Below, in pieces: positions 42,127 to 56,166 of a stretch of DNA of 64,000 nt. The DNA is taken from NCBI GenBank assembly GCA_030430205.1, contig JAUIGE010000002.1:310001-374000 (forward strand). Direction: 5' to 3'. Position 1 is the stretch's first letter. Each line of letters begins with the position of its first letter. The notes beneath the pieces are model-generated. The model was not told where the DNA came from. It searched no databases and saw only the letters and a list, made by a program, of their open reading frames with translations. Made by a program: the position numbers and the translations under genes. The DNA comes from Bacteroidia bacterium (GTDB lineage: Bacteria > Bacteroidota > Bacteroidia > J057).

Positions 42127-43731
42127 ATGAAGAATAAAAATACCACACTCGTTTTGATCTCCCTGATAGTCGCTTTGGGCGGCTTTTTGATGGGATTTGA
42201 TGCATCGGTGATCTCCGGTGTCAATAAGTTTATCACCATTGAGTTCGAACTCAGTGATATAGAATTGGGCTGGGCTGTGGCCTCGCTCACGCTCAGCTCT
42301 ACCCTGGCCATGTTTGTGGCCGGACCTCTCAGCGACCGCTACGGCCGAAAGCGCATGCTGACCCTTGCAGCCATCCTCTATGCCGTTTCTGCCATAGGCT
42401 CTGCCCTGGCACCTTCATTTATCATTTTGGTTATCGCCAGGATGATAGGCGGCATCGGCGTAGGCTTTTCTTTGATTTTGGCACCTATGTATATCGCCGA
42501 GCTTGCGCCAGCCAGGATGCGGGGGCGGCTGGTTTCCTTCAACCAGCTCAACATTGTCATCGGTATCTCTGTTGCTTTTTTTACCAACTACCTGATCCTC
42601 CAACTGGGGAAATCGGATGCCGCCTGGGCGCAGAACCTGAAACTGGATGACTACAACTGGCGTTGGATGCTGGGGCTGGAGGCCCTGCCTGCCATACTGT
42701 ATTTCCTGGGCCTGAGCTTTGTGCCACAGAGTCCGCGCTGGCTGATGATGAAGGGCAAATTTGACCAGGCCATGGCCATCATGAGGCGGGCAGGAGGCAA
42801 GGATGATGAAATCCAAAAACAAATGGCTGATGTGAAAAACAGCCTTCAATCCAGCGGAGGCGAAGCCTCGCGCAATTACCTCGACCTTTTGAAACCTGCC
42901 CTAAAACTTGTGCTTGTCATCGGAATTGTGATCGGGGCTTTGCAGCAGCTTACAGGCATCAACTCTGTATTTTTCTATGCACCCATGATTTTTGAGCAAT
43001 CCGGAGCAGGAGAGGATGCCTCTTTCACACAAGCGATCCTCGTAGGTCTGATCAACCTGGTTTTTACGGTCGTGGCCATCCTGTTTATTGACAGATTGGG
43101 CCGCAAGCCTCTGCTGGTGACAGGCGTAGCAGGAATTGTCTTGTGCATGGGATTATTGTCTTACCAATTTGGCCAGGCTACTTATAGCCTGACAGACAGC
43201 AGCTTTGAGGCCTTTGCAGAGGTTCCAGAAGGGGAAAAAGAGCCCAAAATCAAGGCGGAATATACAGCAGCCATGCTGGAGTTTAAGGATCAAACTTTTG
43301 ACAACGATGTAGATTTCAAAAATGCCCTCAAGGCAAAAATAGGCAAAGAAGAATTCAAGAAAATTGAATCCATTGTGATCACACAAGCCATCAAAAACCT
43401 GGATGCCAACCTCGTTTTGCTTGCTGTTTTGGGCTTTGTGGCCTTCTTTGCTGTGTCCATAGGGCCTGTCATGTGGGTGCTATTCTCAGAACTTTTCCCC
43501 AACTATATCCGGGGAATTGCCATCTCCTTTGTGGGCTTTATCAACTCGGGCGTGAGTTTTTCCGTGCAACTTGTCTTTCCCTGGGAACTCAATACACTCG
43601 GAAATGCAATGACATTTCTGATCTACGGCGCCATTTGCGCAGTAGGGCTTATCTTCATTGTCCTTGTCGTTCCGGAGACCAAAGGAAAATCCCTGGAAGA
43701 ACTGGAGGCTATGTTGGTAAAAAAGGATTAA
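42127..43731 (+). CDS. Sugar porter family MFS transporter
   Basis: The 534-residue protein has 12 membrane segments and the sugar-porter signatures DRYGRKRML after segment 2, PQSPRWLMMKGKFDQA after segment 6, QQLTGIN in segment 7 and VPETKGKSLEELEAM at the end. A hydrophilic insertion of about 75 residues (from about SLTDSSFEAFAEVPEGEKEP to KKIESIVITQAI) lies between segments 9 and 10, on the periplasmic side. These carriers usually import a sugar with protons. It heads a co-directional run with GH16 and a phosphorylase, so I infer import of glucan-derived oligo- or disaccharide. Confidence 0.93.
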   Translation: MKNKNTTLVLISLIVALGGFLMGFDASVISGVNKFITIEFELSDIELGWAVASLTLSSTLAMFVAGPLSDRYGRKRMLTLAAILYAVSAIGSALAPSFIILVIARMIGGIGVGFSLILAPMYIAELAPARMRGRLVSFNQLNIVIGISVAFFTNYLILQLGKSDAAWAQNLKLDDYNWRWMLGLEALPAILYFLGLSFVPQSPRWLMMKGKFDQAMAIMRRAGGKDDEIQKQMADVKNSLQSSGGEASRNYLDLLKPALKLVLVIGIVIGALQQLTGINSVFFYAPMIFEQSGAGEDASFTQAILVGLINLVFTVVAILFIDRLGRKPLLVTGVAGIVLCMGLLSYQFGQATYSLTDSSFEAFAEVPEGEKEPKIKAEYTAAMLEFKDQTFDNDVDFKNALKAKIGKEEFKKIESIVITQAIKNLDANLVLLAVLGFVAFFAVSIGPVMWVLFSELFPNYIRGIAISFVGFINSGVSFSVQLVFPWELNTLGNAMTFLIYGAICAVGLIFIVLVVPETKGKSLEELEAMLVKKD

Positions 43732-43772
43732 TATTCGAACTCAATTATATTCTCATCATTCAATCTCATCAA

Positions 43773-44996
43773 ATGAAACCACTCATTCATATTTGGGCTG
43801 CATGCCTGGGGCTTTTCCTTGTGTCATGCCAGCAAAATACGCCTGCTGAAAAAGAAGCAACAACAGATAGCTCTACCCCTCCGGTGGAAACGGTCATGTA
43901 TTCCCCTGACAGTCCTTTTTTGTTGCATACAGATACCACGCTTGATTTTTCGGTAGAAGTAAAAACCGTAGGGCGTTATCGGAGCAAAGTGATCCTGAAA
44001 AATGAAGGCGACGGCCCCGCCTCTATCTGGATAGAGGACTATATCGGCAATCCCGATGGCCGTACCTACAACATCACCGCAGGCATGGAAGTGCCTGTCG
44101 GCGCAACCGAAGTATTCAAAGAGGGAAGTCCTCTGAAGATAGGCACCCACAAGATGCGCCTGCACGCATCCAAAGGCGCTGTCAGCGTCTCTTCCATCGC
44201 TTTTGAATGGATGATCAATCATCAGGAGACACCCGATACCCTGGTGCAAAGCACCGATGGGGACGAGTGGGAACTCGTCTGGTCAGACGAATTTAACGGC
44301 ACAGGCCTCGTAGACGACAGCAAATGGACCTACGATGTAGGCAACTGGGGCTGGGGCAACAATGAGCCTCAATACTATACGGTAGCCCGTACAGAGAATG
44401 CCCGGCAGGAAAACGGCAACCTCATCATCGAGGCGCGCAAAAACGATATGGGGCAGCCATGGACTTCGGCCCGCCTGACGACCCGCGGCAAAGTCAGCTT
44501 CCTCTACGGCAAGCTCGAATTTCGCGCCAAAGCGCCCGCAGGCGATGGCAGCTGGGCAGCCGGCTGGCTGCTGGGAGATAGCTATAGAGACGAGATATCA
44601 TGGCCTTATTGTGGAGAGGTAGATGTGCTGGAATGCATAGGCAAAGAAATCGACGACAATACCGGCGACGGCATCAATCACGGTTCCTGCCACACGCGCG
44701 GCTATTATTTCAAACAGGGAAACCACATCACCAATACTATCCCTGTCAAAGACATGGTCAATACTTTCCATACCTATACCGCCGAGTGGATGCCCACCGA
44801 GATGCGACTGTATGTGGATGGCGAGCTTTATTATACCTACGACAAGATAGCCGATGAGCTGGAATGGCCTTTTGGCAAAGGACAAAATATCATCATCAAC
44901 CTCGCCATGGGCGGGGGTATGGGTGGAGATATTGACCCTACGCTTGAGCGCGCTCAGTTTGTTTTGGATTATGTTCGTTGGTACGGAAAGAAATAA
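43773..44996 (+). CDS. GH16 beta-glucanase (laminarinase-like) lipoprotein
   Basis: The start is set at MKPLIHIWAACLGLFLVSCQ; the 100 residues before it in the track overlap the MFS gene in another frame. The 407-residue protein has a lipobox (LVSC), an N-terminal beta-sandwich at about 40-165, possibly carbohydrate-binding, and a GH16 domain from WELVWSDEFNG to VRWYGKK. The catalytic signature is EVDVLECIG (E-x-D-x-x-E), and the NNEPQYYT motif is typical of beta-1,3-glucanases and lichenases. It is presumably surface- or periplasm-exposed on a lipid anchor. It lies 41 bases after the MFS stop and 5 bases before the phosphorylase start. Confidence 0.93.
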   Translation: MKPLIHIWAACLGLFLVSCQQNTPAEKEATTDSSTPPVETVMYSPDSPFLLHTDTTLDFSVEVKTVGRYRSKVILKNEGDGPASIWIEDYIGNPDGRTYNITAGMEVPVGATEVFKEGSPLKIGTHKMRLHASKGAVSVSSIAFEWMINHQETPDTLVQSTDGDEWELVWSDEFNGTGLVDDSKWTYDVGNWGWGNNEPQYYTVARTENARQENGNLIIEARKNDMGQPWTSARLTTRGKVSFLYGKLEFRAKAPAGDGSWAAGWLLGDSYRDEISWPYCGEVDVLECIGKEIDDNTGDGINHGSCHTRGYYFKQGNHITNTIPVKDMVNTFHTYTAEWMPTEMRLYVDGELYYTYDKIADELEWPFGKGQNIIINLAMGGGMGGDIDPTLERAQFVLDYVRWYGKK

Positions 44997-45001
44997 ATAA
45001 C

Positions 45002-48000
45002 ATGGCTACTTCCCCCATTTTTCTCGGAAAAAACCTCCTGCAAACCACCCCTAAAGCCATTTCAGGCAAATCTCTGGAGATGGATGGAGAGTCCTGGTTT
45101 CTGATTGAAAATTACGATCAGATGCCGCCCTTTTTTATGAGCATCGTCAGTCCTTCGGACCACTGGCTCTTCCTGTCGAGTACGGGTGCGCTGAGCGCGG
45201 GTCGCATAGACGCAGAGCATGCGCTATTCCCTTACTATACTGATGACAAAATCCACGACAGCGCCGAGCTGACGGGCAGCAAGAGTATTTTTTTGGTGGA
45301 AAAAGGGGAAAAGACCTATCTCTGGGAGCCTTTTTCGGAGAAATATGCAGGCATCTACCGCCTCCGGCGCAATGTGTACAAACACCGTTTGGGGCATCGG
45401 ATCATCTTTGAAGAGATCAATGAAGAGCTGGAAATCCGCTTTCGCTACAGCTGGAATAGCAGCGAGCGCCTGGGCTTTGTGCGGCAGGCAGAGCTTCTGA
45501 ATCTGGGGGGAAATGCTGCCAAAGTCCGGATGCTGGACGGCGTGCAAAACCTCCTTCCCGCAGGCGTCACTACCGGCATGCAAAACGATCGCAGCACCCT
45601 GATCGATGCGTATAAAAAAGCTGAATTGGAAGCAGATTGTGGCTTAGGGATTTTTGCCCTCAGCGCTATTCCTGTCGACCGACCAGAGCCCAGCGAAGCA
45701 CTGCTGGCGACCACCGTGTGGTCGGAAGGCATACAGGCCGAGGCCTATTTGCTGTGCAATCGCCAGCTGGACGCTTTTCGCAAAGGCGAAAAAGTGACAC
45801 CTGAAATCGACATCCGCGCAGAGCGCGGAGCCTATTTCATCCACGCCCGGCTTTCGCTGCAAGCGAAGCAGGCACAGCGCTGGTCGCTGGTGATCGAAGG
45901 AGATCGCGACGCGACGGAGGTCGCTGCCTTGCGCAGCCTGATCCTCTCGGGTCAGGATCTCGCAGCCCTGCTGCGGGCAGAGATACAGGCAGGCACCGAT
46001 CGCCTGTCTCAGATCATCGGCAGTGCCGATGGCCTGCAAGCCTCCGCCGACGAGCTCAGCTCGGCGCGGCACAGCAGCAATGTGCTGTTCAATGTCATGA
46101 GAGGCGGCCTTTTCTGGCGAAATCAGGAACTGCTTTCTCAGGATTTTCTGGCTTTTCTGCAAAGCCACAATCCCGGCATCGCGGATCAGCTGGCGGCGCG
46201 GATCGCCGCCGCGCCGGAAGTCATATCCCACGATCAGCTATTTGAATGGGCGGATAGCCCGCAGGCCCAGCGCCTGAGCTATGAATACCTGCCGCTCTAC
46301 TTCAGTCGCCGGCACGGCGACCCCAGCCGCCCCTGGAATCGCTTTGCGATTCATACGCAGGATGAGCAAGGCAATCCGATCTTCTCCTACCAGGGCAATT
46401 GGCGCGACATCTTCCAAAACTGGGAGGCCCTGGCCTGGTCCTATCCGGCTTTTATCCGGAGCATGATCGCCAAATTTGTCAATGCCTCCACCGCCGACGG
46501 CTACAATCCCTACCGCATCACACGCGATGGCATCGACTGGGAAGTCCTGGAGCCGCATGACCCATGGGCCTATATCGGCTATTGGGGAGATCACCAGATC
46601 ATCTACCTGCAAAAGCTGATGGAAGTGGCGCAGGCCTTTTATCCCGGCTCGCTGGATCAATTTCTGAAACAGGAGATTTTTGCCTACGCCAACGTCCCTT
46701 ACCGCATCAAGGGCCTGGAGGATTTGCTCCAAAATCCACATGATACCATTGATTTTGATGATGCGGCGGAAGCCGAAATACAAAAGCGGGTCGCCGCTAC
46801 AGGCGCGGATGGCAAGTTGATTTGGAACAAAAAAGGAGAAGTCTACCTGGTCAATTTTACCGAAAAACTGCTCGTCACCGGCCTGACCAAACTCAGCAAT
46901 TTTATCCTCGAAGGCGGCATTTGGATGAATACCCAGCGCCCCGAGTGGAACGACGCCAACAATGCCCTCGTGGGCTATGGCATCTCTGTGGTGACGCTTT
47001 GTTATTTGCGGCGCTTTCAGGCTTTTTGTGAAAGCCTGTTTCAGACTGGCGAGGAGAGCTATCAGCTCTCTTCAGAAGTGGTGAGCTGGTTTCAGCAAAG
47101 CCTTCAGGTATTTGAAGCACATGAAGAGTTGTTAAAAAATGACATTTCTGATGAACAACGTTTGGAGATGTTGCGTGCTTTAGGTGAGCCTGCAGAAAAC
47201 TATCGCAAAACGATTTATGGCTCTGGGTTTTCAGGAGCGAAACAATACGTCCGTAAAGCAGAATTGCTTCGTTTTTTCTCTCTAACCCAACAGTATATCG
47301 ACCATTCCATCCAGACCAACCAGCGAAAAGATTTGCTTTTCCATGCCTACAATCTCTGGGAGCTGAATGATGAAAAAGGCTTGCAACTCCTGTATCTCTA
47401 TGAGATGCTCGAAGGGCAGGTGGCTGCTCTGAGTTCGGGTCTGCTTGCTACCGGGGCGGTAGTGCAGGTACTCGACAGCCTGAAGCAAAGTGCTTTATTT
47501 CGAAAAGATCAATACAGCTATATCCTCTATCCCAACCGCGATCTCCCGCGCTTTACCGTCAAAAATCACATTCCGCCAGCCGCCTTTCAGAAGTCTTCTC
47601 TTTTTCAAAAGATGGTCTCTCAAAAGGATCACCGCCTGGTGACGCAGGATGTAGCAGGGGAGGGGCATTTTCAGGGAAATATCCGCAATGCCAAAGACGT
47701 CAGCCGCATCCTGGGCGAGTTGAAGCAGGAGGAAAGCTACCGTGAGCTTGTGCTTCAGGAGGAAAAAAGCATACTCGATGTGTTTGAGAAAATGTTTGAC
47801 CACCAATCATTTACGGGGCGTTCGGGGACATTTTTTGGCTATGAAGGCCTTGGCAGTATCTACTGGCACATGGTGTCTAAACTGCTGTTGGCGGTAGCGG
47901 AAAATTATTTTGCCGGCAAGGCAAAGGGCAGCCCACAGGGCCTGCTCGACCGCCTGGTCGCGCATTATTACGAAATCCGGGCCGGCATCGGCCTCAACAA

Positions 48001-48460
48001 ATCGCCGGAACTCTACGGCGCTTTTCCTACCGATCCCTACTCCCACACCCCTGCCCATCTGGGCGCACAGCAGCCCGGCATGACCGGACAGGTGAAGGAA
48101 GACATCCTTGCCCGCTATTATGAATTGGGGCTGGTGGTGGAGGCTGGGGAAATTCATTTCCGGTCTTATCTGCTGCGCAGCAGCGAGTTTTTCGCGCAGC
48201 CTGCGCCTTTTACCTGCTACGATGTCCAGGGCACAGCCCGGCAGATCACTCTCCCAGCCAAAAGCCTGGCTTTTACTTTCTGCCAGACTTTGATGGTGTA
48301 CCATCTTTCAGATGAGCCTTATGTGCATGTTTACCATGCATCAGGAGAGGTGTCCCGGCATCAGGAACTGATGCTATCGGCGGAGCTGAGCAAGGATATT
48401 TTTGCGAGAAATGGGAAAATTTTGAAGATTGAGGTCGGGCTGAGCGCGGGCCTTGGCTAG
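45002..48460 (+). CDS. Very large glycoside phosphorylase (GH94/GH149-like)
   Basis: The start is set at MATSPIFLGKNLLQTTPK, 5 bases after the GH16 stop; the track's start overlaps GH16 by 19 bases. The 1152-residue protein has no signal peptide and is presumably cytoplasmic. The order is an N-terminal beta-sandwich (about 1-320), a helical linker, an (alpha/alpha)6 barrel, and a C-terminal beta region. The conserved strings HDPWAYIGYWGDHQIIYLQK and QRPEWNDANNALVGYG (catalytic Asp in the latter, at about 645) mark cellobiose-phosphorylase relatives. Its length exceeds GH94 (about 800) and fits beta-1,3-oligoglucan phosphorylases of GH149. With GH16 and the transporter, I infer intracellular phosphorolysis of beta-1,3-glucan oligomers. 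Confidence 0.85.
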   Translation: MATSPIFLGKNLLQTTPKAISGKSLEMDGESWFLIENYDQMPPFFMSIVSPSDHWLFLSSTGALSAGRIDAEHALFPYYTDDKIHDSAELTGSKSIFLVEKGEKTYLWEPFSEKYAGIYRLRRNVYKHRLGHRIIFEEINEELEIRFRYSWNSSERLGFVRQAELLNLGGNAAKVRMLDGVQNLLPAGVTTGMQNDRSTLIDAYKKAELEADCGLGIFALSAIPVDRPEPSEALLATTVWSEGIQAEAYLLCNRQLDAFRKGEKVTPEIDIRAERGAYFIHARLSLQAKQAQRWSLVIEGDRDATEVAALRSLILSGQDLAALLRAEIQAGTDRLSQIIGSADGLQASADELSSARHSSNVLFNVMRGGLFWRNQELLSQDFLAFLQSHNPGIADQLAARIAAAPEVISHDQLFEWADSPQAQRLSYEYLPLYFSRRHGDPSRPWNRFAIHTQDEQGNPIFSYQGNWRDIFQNWEALAWSYPAFIRSMIAKFVNASTADGYNPYRITRDGIDWEVLEPHDPWAYIGYWGDHQIIYLQKLMEVAQAFYPGSLDQFLKQEIFAYANVPYRIKGLEDLLQNPHDTIDFDDAAEAEIQKRVAATGADGKLIWNKKGEVYLVNFTEKLLVTGLTKLSNFILEGGIWMNTQRPEWNDANNALVGYGISVVTLCYLRRFQAFCESLFQTGEESYQLSSEVVSWFQQSLQVFEAHEELLKNDISDEQRLEMLRALGEPAENYRKTIYGSGFSGAKQYVRKAELLRFFSLTQQYIDHSIQTNQRKDLLFHAYNLWELNDEKGLQLLYLYEMLEGQVAALSSGLLATGAVVQVLDSLKQSALFRKDQYSYILYPNRDLPRFTVKNHIPPAAFQKSSLFQKMVSQKDHRLVTQDVAGEGHFQGNIRNAKDVSRILGELKQEESYRELVLQEEKSILDVFEKMFDHQSFTGRSGTFFGYEGLGSIYWHMVSKLLLAVAENYFAGKAKGSPQGLLDRLVAHYYEIRAGIGLNKSPELYGAFPTDPYSHTPAHLGAQQPGMTGQVKEDILARYYELGLVVEAGEIHFRSYLLRSSEFFAQPAPFTCYDVQGTARQITLPAKSLAFTFCQTLMVYHLSDEPYVHVYHASGEVSRHQELMLSAELSKDIFARNGKILKIEVGLSAGLG

Positions 48461-48526: not shown

Positions 48527-51382
48527 ATGGATCCCATTTTCACCTTTTCCCCTGAGGATAAGGCATTTTCTCACTCTCCTGCTCCCCAAAAACTCCCTTT
48601 TCAGCTTGACCCTGATGGCTGTCAGGCCGTCCCTCAATACGGGAATCTGCTTTTTTTCAATGAGGCAGATATTTTTCAGGGGAAAAAATCAACAGAGAAA
48701 GCGCAGGCGCTTTATGAGCAGCACTTTCAGGACATGGCGCAATACGAATTGTTCCTGCAACGCAAAGGCCGCAGGCCGCTTTTCGATCTCTATGGCTGTT
48801 TTCAGCCTTTCAATGAGGCTACCAAAGCCTTTTTCCCTTTTATCAAAGAGCTGCAAAAAAGGCTGAAGCCGGGAGATGTGATCCTCAACCTCTGGGACCG
48901 AAGTGCTTACTTCGCCGGGCTGCTAGCGGCTTTATTTCCTCGCCAGAAAATCATCACCACCTGGACCGGCAACAAAGATATCCTCGGATATAAAGGTTTT
49001 CACCATTGGTTGAAGGACGAGTCTCAGCTGCAGGTTTTATTCTGCGATCTCGACAAACCCCTGCCGATTCGGGACAATGCCATTTCGCTTGTCGTGGGGA
49101 TGGATGCCTTCCATCGTTTTGATCAGTCATTGCTGATGGGAGAGCTGCTGCGCATCACGCATGAGGAGGCTGCTATCATTTTTCCGCATGTACATCTGAG
49201 CAACAATGAGCCGGAGCCTTTCTTCGAAAGAGGCTGCAAGCAGCTGCATGGCCGGGATTATGATGCTTTTTTCCACAAAATGTCCGAGACGCACGCCCGC
49301 AAAGGCTATGTCTTCGGAGAGCCTTATTTGTTTTGGCAAAATGATGTGGAACGCAATCAGCAAATTCCCCTGATCAGCCAGCCTGATACAAGTGATTACA
49401 ATGCCTTGCTGTGCATCCTGCCCGATAGCTGGCAAGGGCCGCTCAGCGCCTTTTCGATGGCTGATCTGGCAGATCCCGGAAGCTGTCGCATCCTGCTCAA
49501 CCAGCTCCTGCATATAGACCTGTACCGGCAGCGGATTTCGGTGGACAGAGGGAAAATGGACGGCACTGCCGGGCACTTGCTGGACAGGCATCCCATCTTT
49601 GTCAAAAGACTGGAAAATGCAGCCGCTTTTCAGCTGGATGATAGCATGGCTCAGGTCCTGCATTTGGCACAATATGGCTTGACGCTCACCGAAATCAGCC
49701 AGCAGCTTCAGCTCCAACTCTCTGAAATCACGCCTTTTCTCCAGCAAATGGAAGAGGCAGGCATCCTGCAGGTACTTCCATTATCCGAAAACTTTTTCCG
49801 CCTTCAGCACTTTATCGCCACCCAATATTATATCATGCCCCGGCAGGCGCAGACGCTGCCCGCCCTTTGGCAACAGGCACAACAGCTCTATGCCGACCGG
49901 CCGCTGCTCATCGACGCGGGCGATGAAAGCAGTTTCAGCTTCGAAGAAGCGGATGAAGTGGTGGAAATTCTTTGTCATCGCCTGATGACAGCGGGTATTC
50001 AAAAAGGGGAGCATATCATGCTCTATGGCGAGCCGCATATAGAGGCATTATTTATTTTTTGGGCGTGCATGCGCCTGGGGATCGTGGTGGTGCCCGTGCA
50101 TGAGCATGTGCGCCCGCAAAGCCTGAGGGAGATCCAGGCGCTTGTTCAGGCCCGGATGGCCTTTTGCTGGGGCAAGGACCGGGCCAGCGTCCGGGAAGCC
50201 ATGGGCGATAGAGAGCTCATCCTGTGGGATGAGGAAGAAGAAATAAGCGGCGAAAAATCGGTCTCGCTTTGGCTGGAAGATGTGGTGGAAAATAGCTTTC
50301 CATCCACCGCCATCCGGCAGGAGGATACGGCCGTGGTCTTGTTTACTTCGGGCTCTACGGGTCGCCCCAAAGGCGTGCCCTTGTCTCATGGGCATCTTTT
50401 TCGCAGCGGCAGGCTGATCACTGAGGCTTTTCAGTGGACAGAAAAAGATCGTTTTCTCGCCCTGGGCGGGCTGGGCTATATGTCAGGCCTGCGCAACAGT
50501 TGCGTAGCGCCCCTGCTGAGTGGGACGGCCGTGGTCGTGCCGGATGTGTCAGCTGCCAGCCATACCTTTGCCATAGCCGAAACCATCGCGCAGCAGCAGG
50601 TCAGCATCCTCGCTGCCAATCCGGCCCTGTACCGGCAATTTGTCCAATACCAGGATCGCGTCGGCAGACAATTGCGCAGCCTCACATGCGTGATGTGCAC
50701 GGGCAGTCCTCTGACAGCAAGGCTGATGGAGGAGTTTGAAGCTGCTTTTCGGCAGCCGATCCTCAACTACTATGGCCTGACAGAGACCACGGGCATTTGC
50801 AGTGCGGTTTTGCCTTTTTTGGAGAAAAATATAGCTTCAGGTATCGGGCAGCCTTTGGGCAGCATCGCCCAGATAGTAGATGCGCAGGGCGCATTGTGCG
50901 CGGAGGGAGCAGAAGGAGAGCTGCGGATTTTCAGTGAAAATATCATGACAGGCTACCTCCGGCAAGCGGAGGAAACGGCCTCTGTGATCCGCAAGGGATG
51001 GTTTTATACAGGAGACATCGCCAGTCTCGATGAGAACAACCAGCTGCACTTGCGGGGCCGCAAGCGGGAGATCGTCAAAACAGCGACCGAAGAACTGATC
51101 TACCTCAGTGAGATAGAGAGCGCGGCAAAAAAATTGCCCTGGGTAAAGGCCGCTGCTGCGGGGGGTTTTGTGCAGCATGATGCAGAGCGCATCGCGCTCT
51201 TTGTGCTATGCGATGCGGATCGCATCTCAGAAGCGGGAGAAATTCTGATGCGGGAGCATCTTTCTGCCATATTGGGAGAAAAGCGTTTGCCTCAGTACAT
51301 TCGCCTGACAGCTGACTTTCCCTATGGTGCAAATGGAAAAATCCTGAAACAAGAATTGATAGATGAACTTCAAAACGGTTAA
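48527..51382 (+). CDS. Methyltransferase-like/winged-helix/AMP-binding fusion
   Basis: The 951-residue protein has a Rossmann-like region at about 115-250 (LKPGDVILNLWDRSAYFAGL, VLFCDLDKPLPIRDNAISLV) that resembles a SAM-methyltransferase with a degenerate glycine motif. A small winged-helix at about 375-415 (YGLTLTEISQQLQLQLSEI) follows. Residues about 440-945 form an ANL adenylation domain with LFTSGSTGRPKGVPLSHGHL, NYYGLTETTGICSA, GWFYTGD and a terminal GANGKILKQEL lysine motif. Adenylation enzymes activate a carboxylic acid as acyl-AMP for transfer to a carrier. The stop overlaps the next start by 20 bases. The acid is unknown, and whether the methyltransferase part is active cannot be told. 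Confidence 0.85.
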   Translation: MDPIFTFSPEDKAFSHSPAPQKLPFQLDPDGCQAVPQYGNLLFFNEADIFQGKKSTEKAQALYEQHFQDMAQYELFLQRKGRRPLFDLYGCFQPFNEATKAFFPFIKELQKRLKPGDVILNLWDRSAYFAGLLAALFPRQKIITTWTGNKDILGYKGFHHWLKDESQLQVLFCDLDKPLPIRDNAISLVVGMDAFHRFDQSLLMGELLRITHEEAAIIFPHVHLSNNEPEPFFERGCKQLHGRDYDAFFHKMSETHARKGYVFGEPYLFWQNDVERNQQIPLISQPDTSDYNALLCILPDSWQGPLSAFSMADLADPGSCRILLNQLLHIDLYRQRISVDRGKMDGTAGHLLDRHPIFVKRLENAAAFQLDDSMAQVLHLAQYGLTLTEISQQLQLQLSEITPFLQQMEEAGILQVLPLSENFFRLQHFIATQYYIMPRQAQTLPALWQQAQQLYADRPLLIDAGDESSFSFEEADEVVEILCHRLMTAGIQKGEHIMLYGEPHIEALFIFWACMRLGIVVVPVHEHVRPQSLREIQALVQARMAFCWGKDRASVREAMGDRELILWDEEEEISGEKSVSLWLEDVVENSFPSTAIRQEDTAVVLFTSGSTGRPKGVPLSHGHLFRSGRLITEAFQWTEKDRFLALGGLGYMSGLRNSCVAPLLSGTAVVVPDVSAASHTFAIAETIAQQQVSILAANPALYRQFVQYQDRVGRQLRSLTCVMCTGSPLTARLMEEFEAAFRQPILNYYGLTETTGICSAVLPFLEKNIASGIGQPLGSIAQIVDAQGALCAEGAEGELRIFSENIMTGYLRQAEETASVIRKGWFYTGDIASLDENNQLHLRGRKREIVKTATEELIYLSEIESAAKKLPWVKAAAAGGFVQHDAERIALFVLCDADRISEAGEILMREHLSAILGEKRLPQYIRLTADFPYGANGKILKQELIDELQNG

Positions 51383-53207
51383 ACAGATCGCAGAAAGCTG
51401 GGGAGAGAGAAATGTCCGCTCCCGATCCTTTGCTGAGGTTTTTAATCAAAAATACAGCTACCAGGAATTGTCCGAGGCTGTGCATACCATGGCCCTGTTT
51501 TTTCAGCAGGCAGGCCTCAGGCCCGGGAGCCGGGTGGTCCTTTCGGTGGCGAATCCCCTGGATACGGCGGTTTTGTTTTGGAGCATGCTCGCATCCGGAA
51601 TCACGGTGGTCGGCATAGACCCAGAAGCGGGAAAAGCGCGCGCAGGATTGATCATTCAGCAGGCCGAAGCGGAGGGTTTCATTATTGATAGGCAGCTTGT
51701 CAGTCGCTGGGGTCTGGATGATTATGCAGGCTTTTTACTGCCTGTGGAGCTCGCCCAGCCCAAAAAGGGCAAGCTGTACACCAAGCTTTTATCCCGAAAA
51801 AAAGAAGCCGCAGAAACCCCTGCCCATAGCTATCCGGCGATACTGGATACGACGGCAGCCATATCTGCTTTGGCAGAAGTACCTCCCTCTACCCTGGCTT
51901 ACATCCTCTTCACTTCCGGCACCACTGCCAACCCCAAAGGGGTGATGATTTCCCATCGAAATCTATTTTCTCACCTGCAGACGCTCAGCGCGCACTACAA
52001 GCTGGAAAGCAGATCCCATCTGCTCAACATCCTCAAACTATACCACGCCGATGGCGTGATCCAGGGGCCTGTCCTGGCCGGATATAACACTTGCTGCTGG
52101 CATCGCCCGCTGGAATTTGAGATTCCGCGGATTCCAGATCTGCTGGATGCTATCTACAAAAACCGCATCTCCCATGCGGTTATGGTTCCGACCATCCTCT
52201 ACCTCCTGCACAAATTTGGGGAAGACTACGAAGACAGCTTCGAGACGGAAGATTTTCAATGTGTGATTTCGGTTTCTTCTCATATCGAAATGGCGCTTTG
52301 GCAGGCTTTTGAACAAAAATTCAAAACCCGCATCGTCAATGTATATGGCCTCACCGAGACGGTGGCAGGCTCCTTCTTTTGTGGGCCGGATGATGCATCC
52401 CGGCAGGTCGGCAGCATCGGCAAGCCGATAGATTGCGAGGCGCGCATCCTCACGGATGCAGGAAAAGCGGCGCAGCCGCAGGAGGAAGGGGAGCTACAGC
52501 TCAAGGGTGAGCATGTGTTTGTCGGATATTTCAACAATGCTGCCGCTACGGCAGAAGCGATGGAAGATGGCTGGCTGAAAACGGGCGATTTGGCCGTTTG
52601 TGATGAAGCAGGATTTTACAAAATCACTGGCCGCAAGAAGAATATCATCATTTCGGGCGGGGTGAACATCCACCCGGAAGAGATCACAGAAGTGATCCAT
52701 ACACATCCTCTGGTGCGCGAAAGCGCCTGCATGGGCAAAGAGGATGCTGCTTTTGGGGAAAAGCTGGTGGCTTGCGTGGTGACTGAGCCTGGGGCTCAGC
52801 TGGATGCGGCACAGTTGACGGACTATCTCCGTCAGCGGCTGGAATCCAGTAAGATTCCCGGGGAGATCCATTTTATGGATGAACTGCCCAAAGGGCTGTC
52901 GGGCAAGGTGCAGCTCCAGGCCCTGAGGGAGCGATTGGAGAAGCAAAGCCAGGCCGATCCGCAGGATCAAAATATGTATAGCCAGGTGATAGCAAGCGCT
53001 GCCCAAGCCTTTGCCATTTCTCCCGAAAAACTCAGCCTGGAATCCAATTCCCGCAGCATAGAAGGCTGGGACTCGATGGCGCATCTCAATTTTGTGCTGT
53101 TATTGGAAAATCACTTTCAGCTGCGTTTCTCCACGGCTGATATCATGGTGATGAACAGCATACAGACAGCCGTGGACATCGTCAGCCGTTATCAGAAAAA
53201 AGCATGA
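51363..53207 (+). CDS. Adenylation enzyme fused to acyl carrier domain
   Basis: The 614-residue protein has an ANL adenylation domain at about 1-530 with LFTSGTTANPKGVMISHRNL, NVYGLTETVAGSFF, GWLKTGD and KKNIIISGGVNIHPEEI. Residues about 540-614 form a carrier domain with the phosphopantetheine serine in IEGWDSMAHLNFVL at about 568. The adenylation-plus-carrier pairing corresponds to DltA plus DltC in Gram-positive D-alanylation, here in one chain. The start overlaps the previous gene by 20 bases; the stop overlaps the next ATG by 4 bases (ATGA). Two adenylation enzymes in one operon may activate different acids, or one may hand over to the other's carrier. Confidence 0.9.
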   Translation: MNFKTVKQIAESWGERNVRSRSFAEVFNQKYSYQELSEAVHTMALFFQQAGLRPGSRVVLSVANPLDTAVLFWSMLASGITVVGIDPEAGKARAGLIIQQAEAEGFIIDRQLVSRWGLDDYAGFLLPVELAQPKKGKLYTKLLSRKKEAAETPAHSYPAILDTTAAISALAEVPPSTLAYILFTSGTTANPKGVMISHRNLFSHLQTLSAHYKLESRSHLLNILKLYHADGVIQGPVLAGYNTCCWHRPLEFEIPRIPDLLDAIYKNRISHAVMVPTILYLLHKFGEDYEDSFETEDFQCVISVSSHIEMALWQAFEQKFKTRIVNVYGLTETVAGSFFCGPDDASRQVGSIGKPIDCEARILTDAGKAAQPQEEGELQLKGEHVFVGYFNNAAATAEAMEDGWLKTGDLAVCDEAGFYKITGRKKNIIISGGVNIHPEEITEVIHTHPLVRESACMGKEDAAFGEKLVACVVTEPGAQLDAAQLTDYLRQRLESSKIPGEIHFMDELPKGLSGKVQLQALRERLEKQSQADPQDQNMYSQVIASAAQAFAISPEKLSLESNSRSIEGWDSMAHLNFVLLLENHFQLRFSTADIMVMNSIQTAVDIVSRYQKKA

Positions 53208-53544
53208 AACCGCAGGCTGCTCCGCTTTATATATGGATTGTCCTTGCTTTGATTTTTGGCATAAGCCAATGGGCGATGTATGTTTTTTCGGAGCAGTTAT
53301 TTCCGGTAAAAATCACCCCAGGCCTAAGCTCCTGGAGGAGGTTTATGCCCAGGATGGTGCGCATCCTAGGATTCAGCGCCTGCTCCGGCAGTATGAAGAC
53401 AGCCTGGGAATTCCTTTCTGGGATTGTCCTTTGGCACTGCCATTCGCATACTACCAGGATTTTGGGCACATGAATGCCAGAGGCCGGAATCATTTCAATC
53501 CCTGGTTATTGGACCGTATTCATCAACACATGATTCAGAACTGA
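53204..53544 (+). pseudogene. Internally deleted, frameshifted copy of the SGNH (DltD-like) gene
   Basis: The first 36 codons (MKPQAAPLYIWIVLALIFGI to SEQLFPVK) match the start of the 54672 gene (MKEQSPPLPIWIFAIGAFIA to FFPKE). From about 53311 a different frame reads NHPRPKLLEEVYAQDG, then YEDSLGIPFWDCPLALPFAY and HMNARGRNHFNPWLLDRIHQ, matching the C terminus of the 54672 product (HQPRPQSLEMLYEKEA, YQQELGIAYWHCPIAFSFSQ, HMNQKGRKIYSAWLLDNIHN). About 220 central codons, including the catalytic-serine region, are missing and the frame is shifted. The two track ORFs here are the two halves. It still starts with a 4-base overlap with the carrier gene. Confidence 0.85.
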
Positions 53545-53545
53545 T

Positions 53546-54670
53546 ATGACCCTCCTGACTTTTATCCTGTTGGGATGCATTCCCGTGGTGGCGGCCTCCT
53601 GGATTTTGCCCTCTCGCTGGCAACTCTGGCCCATGCCGATCGCTACGGCGGTTTTTCTGGCGTATTTTGCGCCGGTTTCTTTGGCGATACTCACGGCTAC
53701 GACGATCACTTCTTATTTTATCCTTCAGTATAAAAAGAAACTCACCGCAGCCACACTTGTGGTCGTGGCTCAGTCCGCCGCCATTTTCCTCTTTTTCAAA
53801 CTCGGCGCAAATCACCAGATGGGCATGGTGCTGGAGCGCATCATTCCGCTGGGTTTGTCCTATTATTCCTTTCGCCAAATCCACTATGCGGTAGAAGCTT
53901 ATAAGCAAAAACTGCCGCAGCATCACCTGGGAGATTACGTGAAATATTTATTTTTTCTGCCGACGATCTTGGTCGGTCCGATCCATCTTTTTCAGGATTT
54001 TCAGCGGGACAGCCGCAGGCGGCGGTGGGATGCGGGCATGTTTTCGCAGGGCCTGGAGCGCATCCTCTATGGTTTTGTCAAAATCACGGTTTTGGGCAAT
54101 TATCTCGTCTCCTATCACCTTCAAAATTACATTTTGAGCCTGGAGCCAGATTCCTGGCTGGCGACCTATCTGGATGCCTTTCGCTTCACGGCGAATGCCT
54201 ATTTTCAGTTCGCGGGCTTCTCAGAGATAGCCGTCGGTCTCTCCGCCCTGATGGGCTTTCGGATCATCGAAAACTTTCGTTTTCCTTTCCTGGCGCTCAA
54301 TATGACCGATTTTTGGAATCGCTGGCACATCTCGCTTTCGCATTGGTGCCGCGAGTATGTCTACTTTCCGATCTTGGGCTACAGCCGCAAGGGAAATATA
54401 GCCATCGTAGCGTCCATGCTGGTGCTGGGACTTTGGCATGAGATATCGAGCTATTTTATGGTTTGGGCGATTTCACATGCCGTTGCGATCAATATCTGGC
54501 ATGCGTATAAAAATTCCGCTTTTCAAAAAAAGCTTCATGCGGCCCTTCCTTTTCACCAGGCACTGGGCTGGCTGTTGACGATGCACTTTGTGATGTTTAG
54601 CTTTATTCTTTTGAAAGAGGAAAACTGGGCGGATATTATTCGGGCGTTCCAAAATCTTTTATTTCTGTAG
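53546..54670 (+). CDS. MBOAT-family membrane O-acyltransferase (DltB-like)
   Basis: The 374-residue multi-pass protein carries the MBOAT signatures PLGLSYYSFRQIHYAVEAYK, FLPTILVGPIHLFQDF, DFWNRWHISLSHWCREYVYF at about 254-273, and the catalytic histidine in LGLWHE at about 296. In DltB, AlgI and PatA these proteins move an acyl group from a cytoplasmic carrier to an extracytoplasmic acceptor. The length is nearer DltB (about 400) than AlgI (about 470 or more). It starts 2 bases after the pseudogene stop and ends 2 bases before the SGNH gene. With the adenylation-carrier enzyme it makes the expected transfer pair. Confidence 0.92.
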   Translation: MTLLTFILLGCIPVVAASWILPSRWQLWPMPIATAVFLAYFAPVSLAILTATTITSYFILQYKKKLTAATLVVVAQSAAIFLFFKLGANHQMGMVLERIIPLGLSYYSFRQIHYAVEAYKQKLPQHHLGDYVKYLFFLPTILVGPIHLFQDFQRDSRRRRWDAGMFSQGLERILYGFVKITVLGNYLVSYHLQNYILSLEPDSWLATYLDAFRFTANAYFQFAGFSEIAVGLSALMGFRIIENFRFPFLALNMTDFWNRWHISLSHWCREYVYFPILGYSRKGNIAIVASMLVLGLWHEISSYFMVWAISHAVAINIWHAYKNSAFQKKLHAALPFHQALGWLLTMHFVMFSFILLKEENWADIIRAFQNLLFL

Positions 54671-54671
54671 G

Positions 54672-55673
54672 ATGAAAGAGCAATCTCCACCACTCCCTAT
54701 CTGGATTTTTGCCATCGGCGCTTTTATCGCCCTGCAATGGGCGATGTCGCAGCATACTGAATTTTTTTTCCCAAAAGAGGCAAAGGATATGTCTTTTCTC
54801 CCCGCTCATGCCCAGCGCACACTGGCTCAATTGGAAATAAACAGAAGCCACTACCTGGAGATGAAAAAACAATTTCCAGGCGCTTACCAGGCTGTAGCCA
54901 TAGGTTCTTCCCTCACCAATGCGAATATCGATTGTACCGATGAACTGCTTACCCTAAGCCTTGAAAAATATGGAGATTCGATCGTTGTCTCCAAAATTTA
55001 CAGCCCCGGAAGGCCCCTCTTGCTTATGAGCAGATATGGAAAGCTCTTTGAAACCTTGCTTGAGAATCCTCCCGACCTCCTTTTTCTCGAAAGAGATATG
55101 ATGACTTTTGCATTTCGGGATTCGATAGAGAAGAAAGCTCCACCGGCTCATAAATTGGCTGGAACCACTTTTTTATCCCATGCAGAAGGGATGTATATAC
55201 AGCTGAGGGATGCTTTGATGAGCAATCGCCTGAACCTTATTTCTGCCCTTCAGGTAAAAAATTATGAACAGCCAGAACCCTTCTCTTCACAGGCCTGTTA
55301 TCCCATAGCTGCCAAAGCTATCCAGGCTGATACCCTCGGGATGGATCTGAGGAAACGCGTAGTCTTTCCTTATAGGAGCGTTGCTGTGTTTATACAGTCT
55401 GATATTCAAAAATTGCAGGCGCTGGGCACAGAGGTGATACTTTTGCATCAGCCACGCCCCCAGTCGCTTGAAATGCTCTATGAAAAAGAAGCTGAAAGCG
55501 CCCAAATAGAAAAGCTCACAGAGCAATACCAACAGGAATTGGGGATCGCTTACTGGCATTGCCCCATCGCGTTTTCCTTTTCCCAATTCGCAGATAGAGC
55601 GCACATGAACCAAAAAGGCCGGAAAATATACTCCGCATGGTTGCTGGACAACATTCATAATCAATTACCCTGA
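54672..55673 (+). CDS. Membrane-anchored SGNH-like acyltransferase accessory protein (DltD-like)
   Basis: The 333-residue protein has one N-terminal membrane segment (PIWIFAIGAFIALQWAM), and the rest is predicted to lie outside the cytoplasm. Block I is AIGSSLTNANID with a candidate nucleophilic serine at about 78-79, and block V is FADRAHMNQKGRKIYSAWL with a DxxH pair at about 308-311. This is the SGNH/GDSL layout of DltD and AlgX/AlgJ, which complete the acyl transfer after the MBOAT step. Its stop codon shares a base with the start of the next small gene (TGATG). A decayed paralogue lies two genes upstream. Confidence 0.8.
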   Translation: MKEQSPPLPIWIFAIGAFIALQWAMSQHTEFFFPKEAKDMSFLPAHAQRTLAQLEINRSHYLEMKKQFPGAYQAVAIGSSLTNANIDCTDELLTLSLEKYGDSIVVSKIYSPGRPLLLMSRYGKLFETLLENPPDLLFLERDMMTFAFRDSIEKKAPPAHKLAGTTFLSHAEGMYIQLRDALMSNRLNLISALQVKNYEQPEPFSSQACYPIAAKAIQADTLGMDLRKRVVFPYRSVAVFIQSDIQKLQALGTEVILLHQPRPQSLEMLYEKEAESAQIEKLTEQYQQELGIAYWHCPIAFSFSQFADRAHMNQKGRKIYSAWLLDNIHNQLP

Positions 55674-55810
55674 TGTATACTTTTTTCAAAAAACGTATCG
55701 GCAAAATCCCTGCACAGATCCTCATGTTTTTGTGGTACTTTTTGCTGCTCTCGCTGGTGTTTTATTGCTGGGATGCGGAGATGGCGCAGTTTCGGTATAT
55801 GCAGTGGTGA
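55673..55810 (+). CDS. 45-aa single-pass microprotein, DltX-like
   Basis: This ORF is too short for the track. It starts at ATG 55673, sharing one base with the preceding stop (TGATG), so it is translationally coupled. It encodes a basic N terminus (MYTFFKKRIGKIPAQ), one membrane segment (ILMFLWYFLLLSLVFYC) and the tail WDAEMAQFRYMQW. The tail pattern F-x-Y-x-x-W is close to the FIYNEF-like end of DltX proteins from Gram-positive dlt operons, which as I recall are about 50 residues, single-pass and act with DltB. Basic-in orientation places the C terminus outside. Position at the end of an adenylation, carrier, MBOAT and SGNH set makes this a strong inference, not proof. Confidence 0.7.
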   Translation: MYTFFKKRIGKIPAQILMFLWYFLLLSLVFYCWDAEMAQFRYMQW

Positions 55811-55960: not shown

Positions 55961-56166
55961 ATGAATTTTCAGAATACCAGACAAAATTGTCATAGCTCCT
56001 TTTTTGACAGGATTACAGGATTACAGGATTACAGGATTTTCAGGATTAACAGGATGCCATTTGTTTTTCTTGTAAATCCTGAAAATCATGTTTATCCTGT
56101 CTAAATCTTCTCTTCAGCTTGGCTAACCAGGCAAAATGTCTAGCAGGATGATGAATTTTCAGAATA
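55961..56166. repeat. Two blocks in permuted order flanking a palindromic repeat
   Basis: ATGAATTTTCAGAATA occurs at 55961 and again at 56151. A second block, CCAGACAAAATTGTCATAGC at 55978, recurs as CCAGGCAAAATGTCTAGC at 56127. The blocks are in the order 1-2 on the left and 2-1 on the right, with an AGGATTACAGG repeat in between. From 55811 to 55960 only a short fragment reading NNKIKRHFGKKPISELSS is seen, with no gene. Confidence 0.6.
56013..56101. repeat. AGGATTACAGG tandem repeat with inverted copy
   Basis: GACAGGATTACAGGATTACAGGATTACAGGATTTTCAGGATTAACAGGAT is followed after a short spacer by GTAAATCCTGAAAATCATGTTTATCCTGTC, which is nearly its reverse complement. Palindromic elements of this sequence type occur as dispersed repeats in Bacteroidota genomes. 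No T-run follows the stem. Confidence 0.8.

Follow-up and report, generated by a model that had tools for sequence, protein, structure and literature searches.

A conserved 45-codon gene in a Bacteroidota acylation cassette very probably provides a tail-less MBOAT with a detached acyl shuttle arm

Introduction

What does a 45-codon ORF encode when it is squeezed behind the genes of a putative envelope-acylation cassette and ends in FRYMQW? The question arises in a stretch of DNA of 64,000 nucleotides (the window hereafter), whose host phylum was deduced to be Bacteroidota because of T9SS sorting domains. The first-pass annotation had placed the ORF behind SGNH and MBOAT genes, and had suggested that it shares the mechanism of DltX. 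To our knowledge, a separate tyrosine-arm peptide has previously been credited only to Dlt, a pathway described mostly in Gram-positives.

The dltX gene was found in 809 species, 805 of which are Firmicutes (PMC5541007), and a 2025 paper describes the carrier protein and the DltX-like microprotein as both absent from non-Dlt MBOAT/SGNH pathways (PMC12148441). For PatA, experiments have demonstrated auto-acylation of the tail Tyr, and the SGNH partner is served by the resulting acyl-tyrosine peptide; DltX is reported to behave likewise (PMC12148441).

Results

The microprotein gene is real and conserved

The ORF at 55673-55810 on the + strand translates as MYTFFKKRIGKIPAQILMFLWYFLLLSLVFYCWDAEMAQFRYMQW* (45 codons). 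The SGNH and MBOAT genes do lie upstream (Table 1), and the A at 55673 is common to the SGNH stop codon (TGA, 55671-55673) and to the ATG of the microprotein, as had been noted on first reading. The single membrane segment claimed at that stage was also found: residues 16-33 are the sole hydrophobic segment (mean hydropathy 2.17), and since four K/R and no D/E precede it, the microprotein is predicted to be N-in/C-out.

Other genomes of the phylum yielded five homologues, 31-44% identical. A peptide search gave one relative, full-length and from a different genus of the family (44% identity, E 1e-5); growing profiles added one in another family of the class and one more in that other genus, and then two in another class of the phylum. 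All five are encoded by an ORF of 45-48 codons directly 3' of a short MBOAT gene that lacks a tail of its own; in the window, one SGNH gene stands between MBOAT and peptide. The six tails are FRYMQW, FRYLNW, FRYIGW (twice), FRYLGL and FRYFGL, and F-R-Y is the longest invariant run among these divergent microproteins. The likeness of FRYMQW to the F-x-Y-x-x-F pattern, proposed in the first-pass annotation, therefore holds in part: F and Y are at the DltX spacing and invariant in 6/6, but W replaces the final F, and the last residue is W in four members and L in two. Arg41, which had not been mentioned, is invariant as well.

The frame of the microprotein is under purifying selection, with dN/dS clearly below 1 (0.52/1.96 between the window and G005, 0.35/1.08 between G142 and G747), more distant pairs being too diverged for informative values. 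In the other frames dN/dS was about 1 or higher, except for one antisense frame with a milder synonymous excess. A tail of the form F.Y..[FWYLMI] ends 1 of the 409 window ORFs of 30-70 aa, the microprotein alone, and 20 of 8251 ORFs of this size at 80 other loci; as 18 of these 20 are DltX-like peptides beside tail-less MBOATs, about two tails in the 8251 control ORFs are due to chance. In conclusion, the ORF is a conserved coding gene.

None of the six peptides matched the Pfam DltX model at E<=10, and no match over its cut-off was found in the six genomes; one peptide matches DUF2705 only, below its cut-off. A profile-profile comparison with DltX gave a probability of 6%, with ten tail residues aligned. 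The PF12459 cut-off (25 bits) is passed by Levilactobacillus DltX (81 bits), and divergent clostridial DltX peptides (14-17 bits) also fall below it. In five clostridial dlt-type operons (L066, L086, L090, L096, L046) the DltX-like gene is last, after dltD; such peptides, at 13.7-17.3 bits where tested, are likely missed in annotation.

The partner MBOAT has no tail of its own

The cassette MBOAT belongs to the superfamily by its MBOAT fold and both conserved His residues. It matches the DltB model TIGR04091 (E 3.5e-53) with 181 bits, below the cut-off of 375, and DltB is the closest solved structure in the PDB to its AF2 model (pLDDT 88.7).

As a control, 80 MBOAT loci of other genomes were taken from one scan, and 78 had a readable MBOAT. 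An own x-Y-x-x-F tail was present in 52/78, a short MBOAT with a nearby tail-bearing microprotein in 24/78, and neither in 2/78. MBOATs of the microprotein type measure 370-404 aa and those of the fused type mostly 449-570 aa. The cassette MBOATs (366-384 aa) belong to the microprotein class by length and by their ends, LLFL, FFIN, INFF or FFFM, with no FxYxxF. The missing tail is specific to the cassette, as all other MBOATs of four host genomes (14/14) carry their own tail, for example FIYFQF.

In a tree of the MBOAT core, calculated without the tail columns, the six cassette MBOATs form one clade (100/99) beside DltB and fused (99/97) clades; the tree is unrooted and fits a single origin of detachment as well as two. 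In two samples, of 395 and 396 genomes, those with close relatives of the MBOAT (E below 1e-100) and those with the microprotein coincided exactly. The microprotein accompanies every found member of one tail-less MBOAT clade, which lost its tail or never had one. The MBOAT of G527 was considered as a seventh member and rejected, since its own C-terminal tail, PIYLQF, makes it of the fused type.

Directly after the catalytic His, the six-member clade has E or Q, compared with G in 62/62 other MBOATs counted, so that the chemistry may differ. The residue preceding the tail Tyr is likewise peculiar, an invariant Arg in the microprotein versus mostly I, V, L or T in the DltX and fused tails counted. 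We infer that the microprotein Arg and the MBOAT Glu/Gln meet at the active site.

Table 1. Features of the cassette in the window (positions of the 64,000-nucleotide stretch)
Feature	Coordinates	Strand	Evidence or remark
Second AMP-forming ligase, 951 aa, with a ~440-aa N-domain lacking a family match	48527..51382	+	Pfam AMP-binding 5.7e-66 at 449-811
AMP-forming ligase with C-terminal carrier-protein domain	51363..53207	+	Pfam AMP-binding 8.7e-59
Carrier-protein (ACP/DltC-like) domain, GWDS phosphopantetheine site	52956..53204	+	Weak, near-threshold Pfam PP-binding match
Remnant of a second SGNH gene	53204..53545	+	N-terminal TM and C-terminal D-x-x-H block in two different frames; GSS block with the active-site serine missing
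Short tail-less MBOAT, DltB-like, 374 aa	53546..54670	+	Pfam MBOAT 3.7e-18
MBOAT His261	54326-54328	+	Invariant
MBOAT His298	54437-54439	+	Invariant
MBOAT Glu299	54440-54442	+	Usual Gly replaced
SGNH-like putative acyltransferase, 333 aa, N-terminal TM, GSS (78-80), DxxH (308-311)	54672..55673	+	
Probable acyl-shuttle microprotein (45 aa), one TM helix, predicted N-in/C-out	55673..55810	+	Five homologues, purifying selection in frame, single hydrophobic segment
Microprotein transmembrane segment, residues 16-33	55718..55771	+	Hydropathy; same place in all six members
C-terminal hexapeptide FRYMQW	55790..55807	+	F-R-Y invariant 6/6, last residue W or L
Invariant Arg41 of the microprotein	55793-55795	+	
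Proposed acyl-carrying Tyr42 of the microprotein	55796-55798	+	

Composition of the cassette

In four other genomes the genes are ordered long-N-domain ligase, ligase with carrier, SGNH, MBOAT and microprotein; the contig of the fifth, G409, stops short of the upstream genes. A homologue of the 951-aa ligase stands first in these four cassettes, and its N-terminal ~440-aa domain is kept in all complete cassettes. In the window this domain (48527-49846) had no family match in Pfam, NCBIfam or PDB sequences; a SAM-binding Rossmann identity, seen as a by-eye pattern and lacking a library match, is not claimed.

The GWDS serine block recurs in each of the five homologues, where it belongs to the ligase polypeptide. 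Among solved structures, the carrier-linked ligase is nearest to oxalyl-CoA synthetase, then to malonyl- and succinylbenzoyl-CoA synthetases and luciferases. At the position of the FDxS of DltA, it has H[AVS]DG, and the other ligase has xMS[GA]; depending on the alignment, the Asp of the carrier-linked ligase is at the DltA Asp or one aligned position off. D-alanine is a doubtful cargo, since the ligases lack FDxS and oxalyl-CoA synthetase is the nearest structure to the carrier-linked one.

The SGNH assignment is based on motifs: G78, S79, S80, D308 and H311 are invariant in the five homologues, and GDSL/SGNH family matches were all sub-threshold. Profile-profile comparison with DltD aligned 47 columns with a probability of 28%, which does not support kinship with DltD. 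A single-sequence fold of the SGNH protein was discarded (pLDDT 34). The remnant upstream of the MBOAT gene occupies the site of the intact SGNH gene in homologous cassettes, and the intact SGNH 3' of the MBOAT resembles it at both ends. To judge from these sequences, this looks like a tandem SGNH duplication of which the first copy decayed, which would explain why the microprotein gene is behind SGNH here and behind MBOAT elsewhere. Conservation of GWDS, of the two MBOAT His and of both SGNH motifs (GSS, DxxH) makes the cassette itself look active.

Directly upstream of the cassette and on the same strand (42127-48460) are genes for a sugar transporter, a GH16 glucanase and a GH149 1,3-beta-glucan phosphorylase (NCBIfam NF058639, 1641 bits); transporter, GH16 and GH149 genes are not close by in the other cassettes. 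In G401, an aminotransferase gene (L116 8324-9700, 458 aa, class III type by eye) is directly upstream of the cassette and possibly hints at the cargo. Short tandem repeats of the ggattaca form lie downstream of the cassette in the window, at 56015-56060.

Discussion

The microprotein very probably serves an envelope-acylation machine as its detached acyl shuttle arm. In the scheme that we propose, the AMP ligase would load an acyl group on its own C-terminal carrier domain, and the MBOAT, on the cytoplasmic side, would take it over from the carrier thioester. By analogy with DltX and PatA, the periplasmic tail FRYMQW would plug the MBOAT funnel, where His298 would promote transfer to Tyr42. 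The tail would then swing to the SGNH protein, whose GSS serine would receive the acyl group and hand it on to a sugar hydroxyl outside the membrane. A mechanism shared with DltX, presumably acyl-Tyr formation, is supported, as initially suggested, by the conserved ORF, its F/Y tail and the purifying dN/dS.

The resemblance to DltX (PF12459) is extensive: 40-55 aa, a single N-in/C-out TM, a C-terminal F-x-Y hexapeptide, a tail-less MBOAT of ~370-400 aa and an SGNH protein as partners, and an operon with a ligase and a carrier protein. The locus might accordingly be an extremely diverged true Dlt operon, in which the peptide is the orthologous DltX and the cargo is D-alanine. That the parts are the same (ligase, carrier, MBOAT, SGNH, microprotein) speaks for this, as do DltB being the best characterised relative of the MBOAT, the terminal position of the DltX-like gene in clostridial dlt operons, and the unrooted tree, in which one change gives the detached state to the DltB and cassette clades. 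We nevertheless regard it as unlikely: the six peptides and their genomes do not reach the cut-off of the DltX model and the profile-profile probability is low, the MBOAT stays below the DltB cut-off, neither ligase has the FDxS of DltA, oxalyl- and malonyl-CoA synthetases are among the proteins most like the carrier-linked ligase, and Dlt has no second ligase. Other differences from DltX and its pathway are the fusion of the carrier to its ligase, a tail of FRYxx[WL] where DltX has FxYxxF with an invariant final F, and host genomes that bear T9SS and are of another phylum. Because the Pfam model failed and the tail departs, the microprotein is DltX-like in its working and not established as DltX; 'shared mechanism' holds better than 'DltX', as the peptides are outside the Pfam family and the cargo is probably something other than D-alanine.

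Going beyond the shuttle role, we tentatively envisage that these detached shuttles form a family of their own, which may have parted from the MBOAT separately from DltX, has a distinctive active-site pairing (an invariant Arg by the Tyr, a Glu/Gln by the catalytic His) and may deliver a carrier-bound acyl group other than D-alanine to a Gram-negative surface polymer.

Small single-TM proteins commonly serve as subunits for assembly, and DltX too keeps its partners together (PMC12148441). The peptide could thus be an assembly or stability subunit that joins MBOAT and SGNH and whose Tyr carries no acyl group; two features that known shuttles do not share would fit, namely an Arg next to the Tyr and a last residue that is not aromatic in two members. 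This seems improbable, since F-R-Y, which occupies the shuttle position, is the longest run that all six divergent members have unchanged, and since the partner MBOAT is the one that has no built-in tail. A chance ORF without a product, which its shortness and its one-base overlap with another ORF might have suggested, is practically dismissed by same-place homologues under purifying selection in its frame, this conservation being in itself a refutation, and by the rarity of chance tails (about 2 per 8000 ORFs).

The cassette is also akin to PatA/PatB-type pairs, which have an MBOAT with two invariant His, an SGNH partner and tyrosine tail chemistry. In these the tail is the C-terminus of the MBOAT itself, on two extra helices, whereas the cassette MBOAT stops ~80-100 residues earlier; the cassette has a carrier and a microprotein, and PatA/PatB-type systems have neither according to published accounts (PMC12148441). 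Dlt-type genes in Gram-negative bacteria are known from Dickeya and Pectobacterium, where they are reported as dlt homologues (PMC5541007); judged by that description, the cassette is set apart by failing the Dlt models. A literature search, whose coverage left out most subscription journals, found no paper on such a cassette.

These results have a practical side for annotation: a tail-less bacterial MBOAT predicts a nearby unannotated gene of 40-55 codons that ends in F-x-Y plus three residues. They also indicate that D-alanylation, in the sense of the Dlt models, is not alone in having the split design of a carrier protein and a detached tyrosine peptide. Since a second lineage of MBOATs combines carrier and microprotein, it seems that a detached shuttle and a thioester-carrier donor are linked traits.
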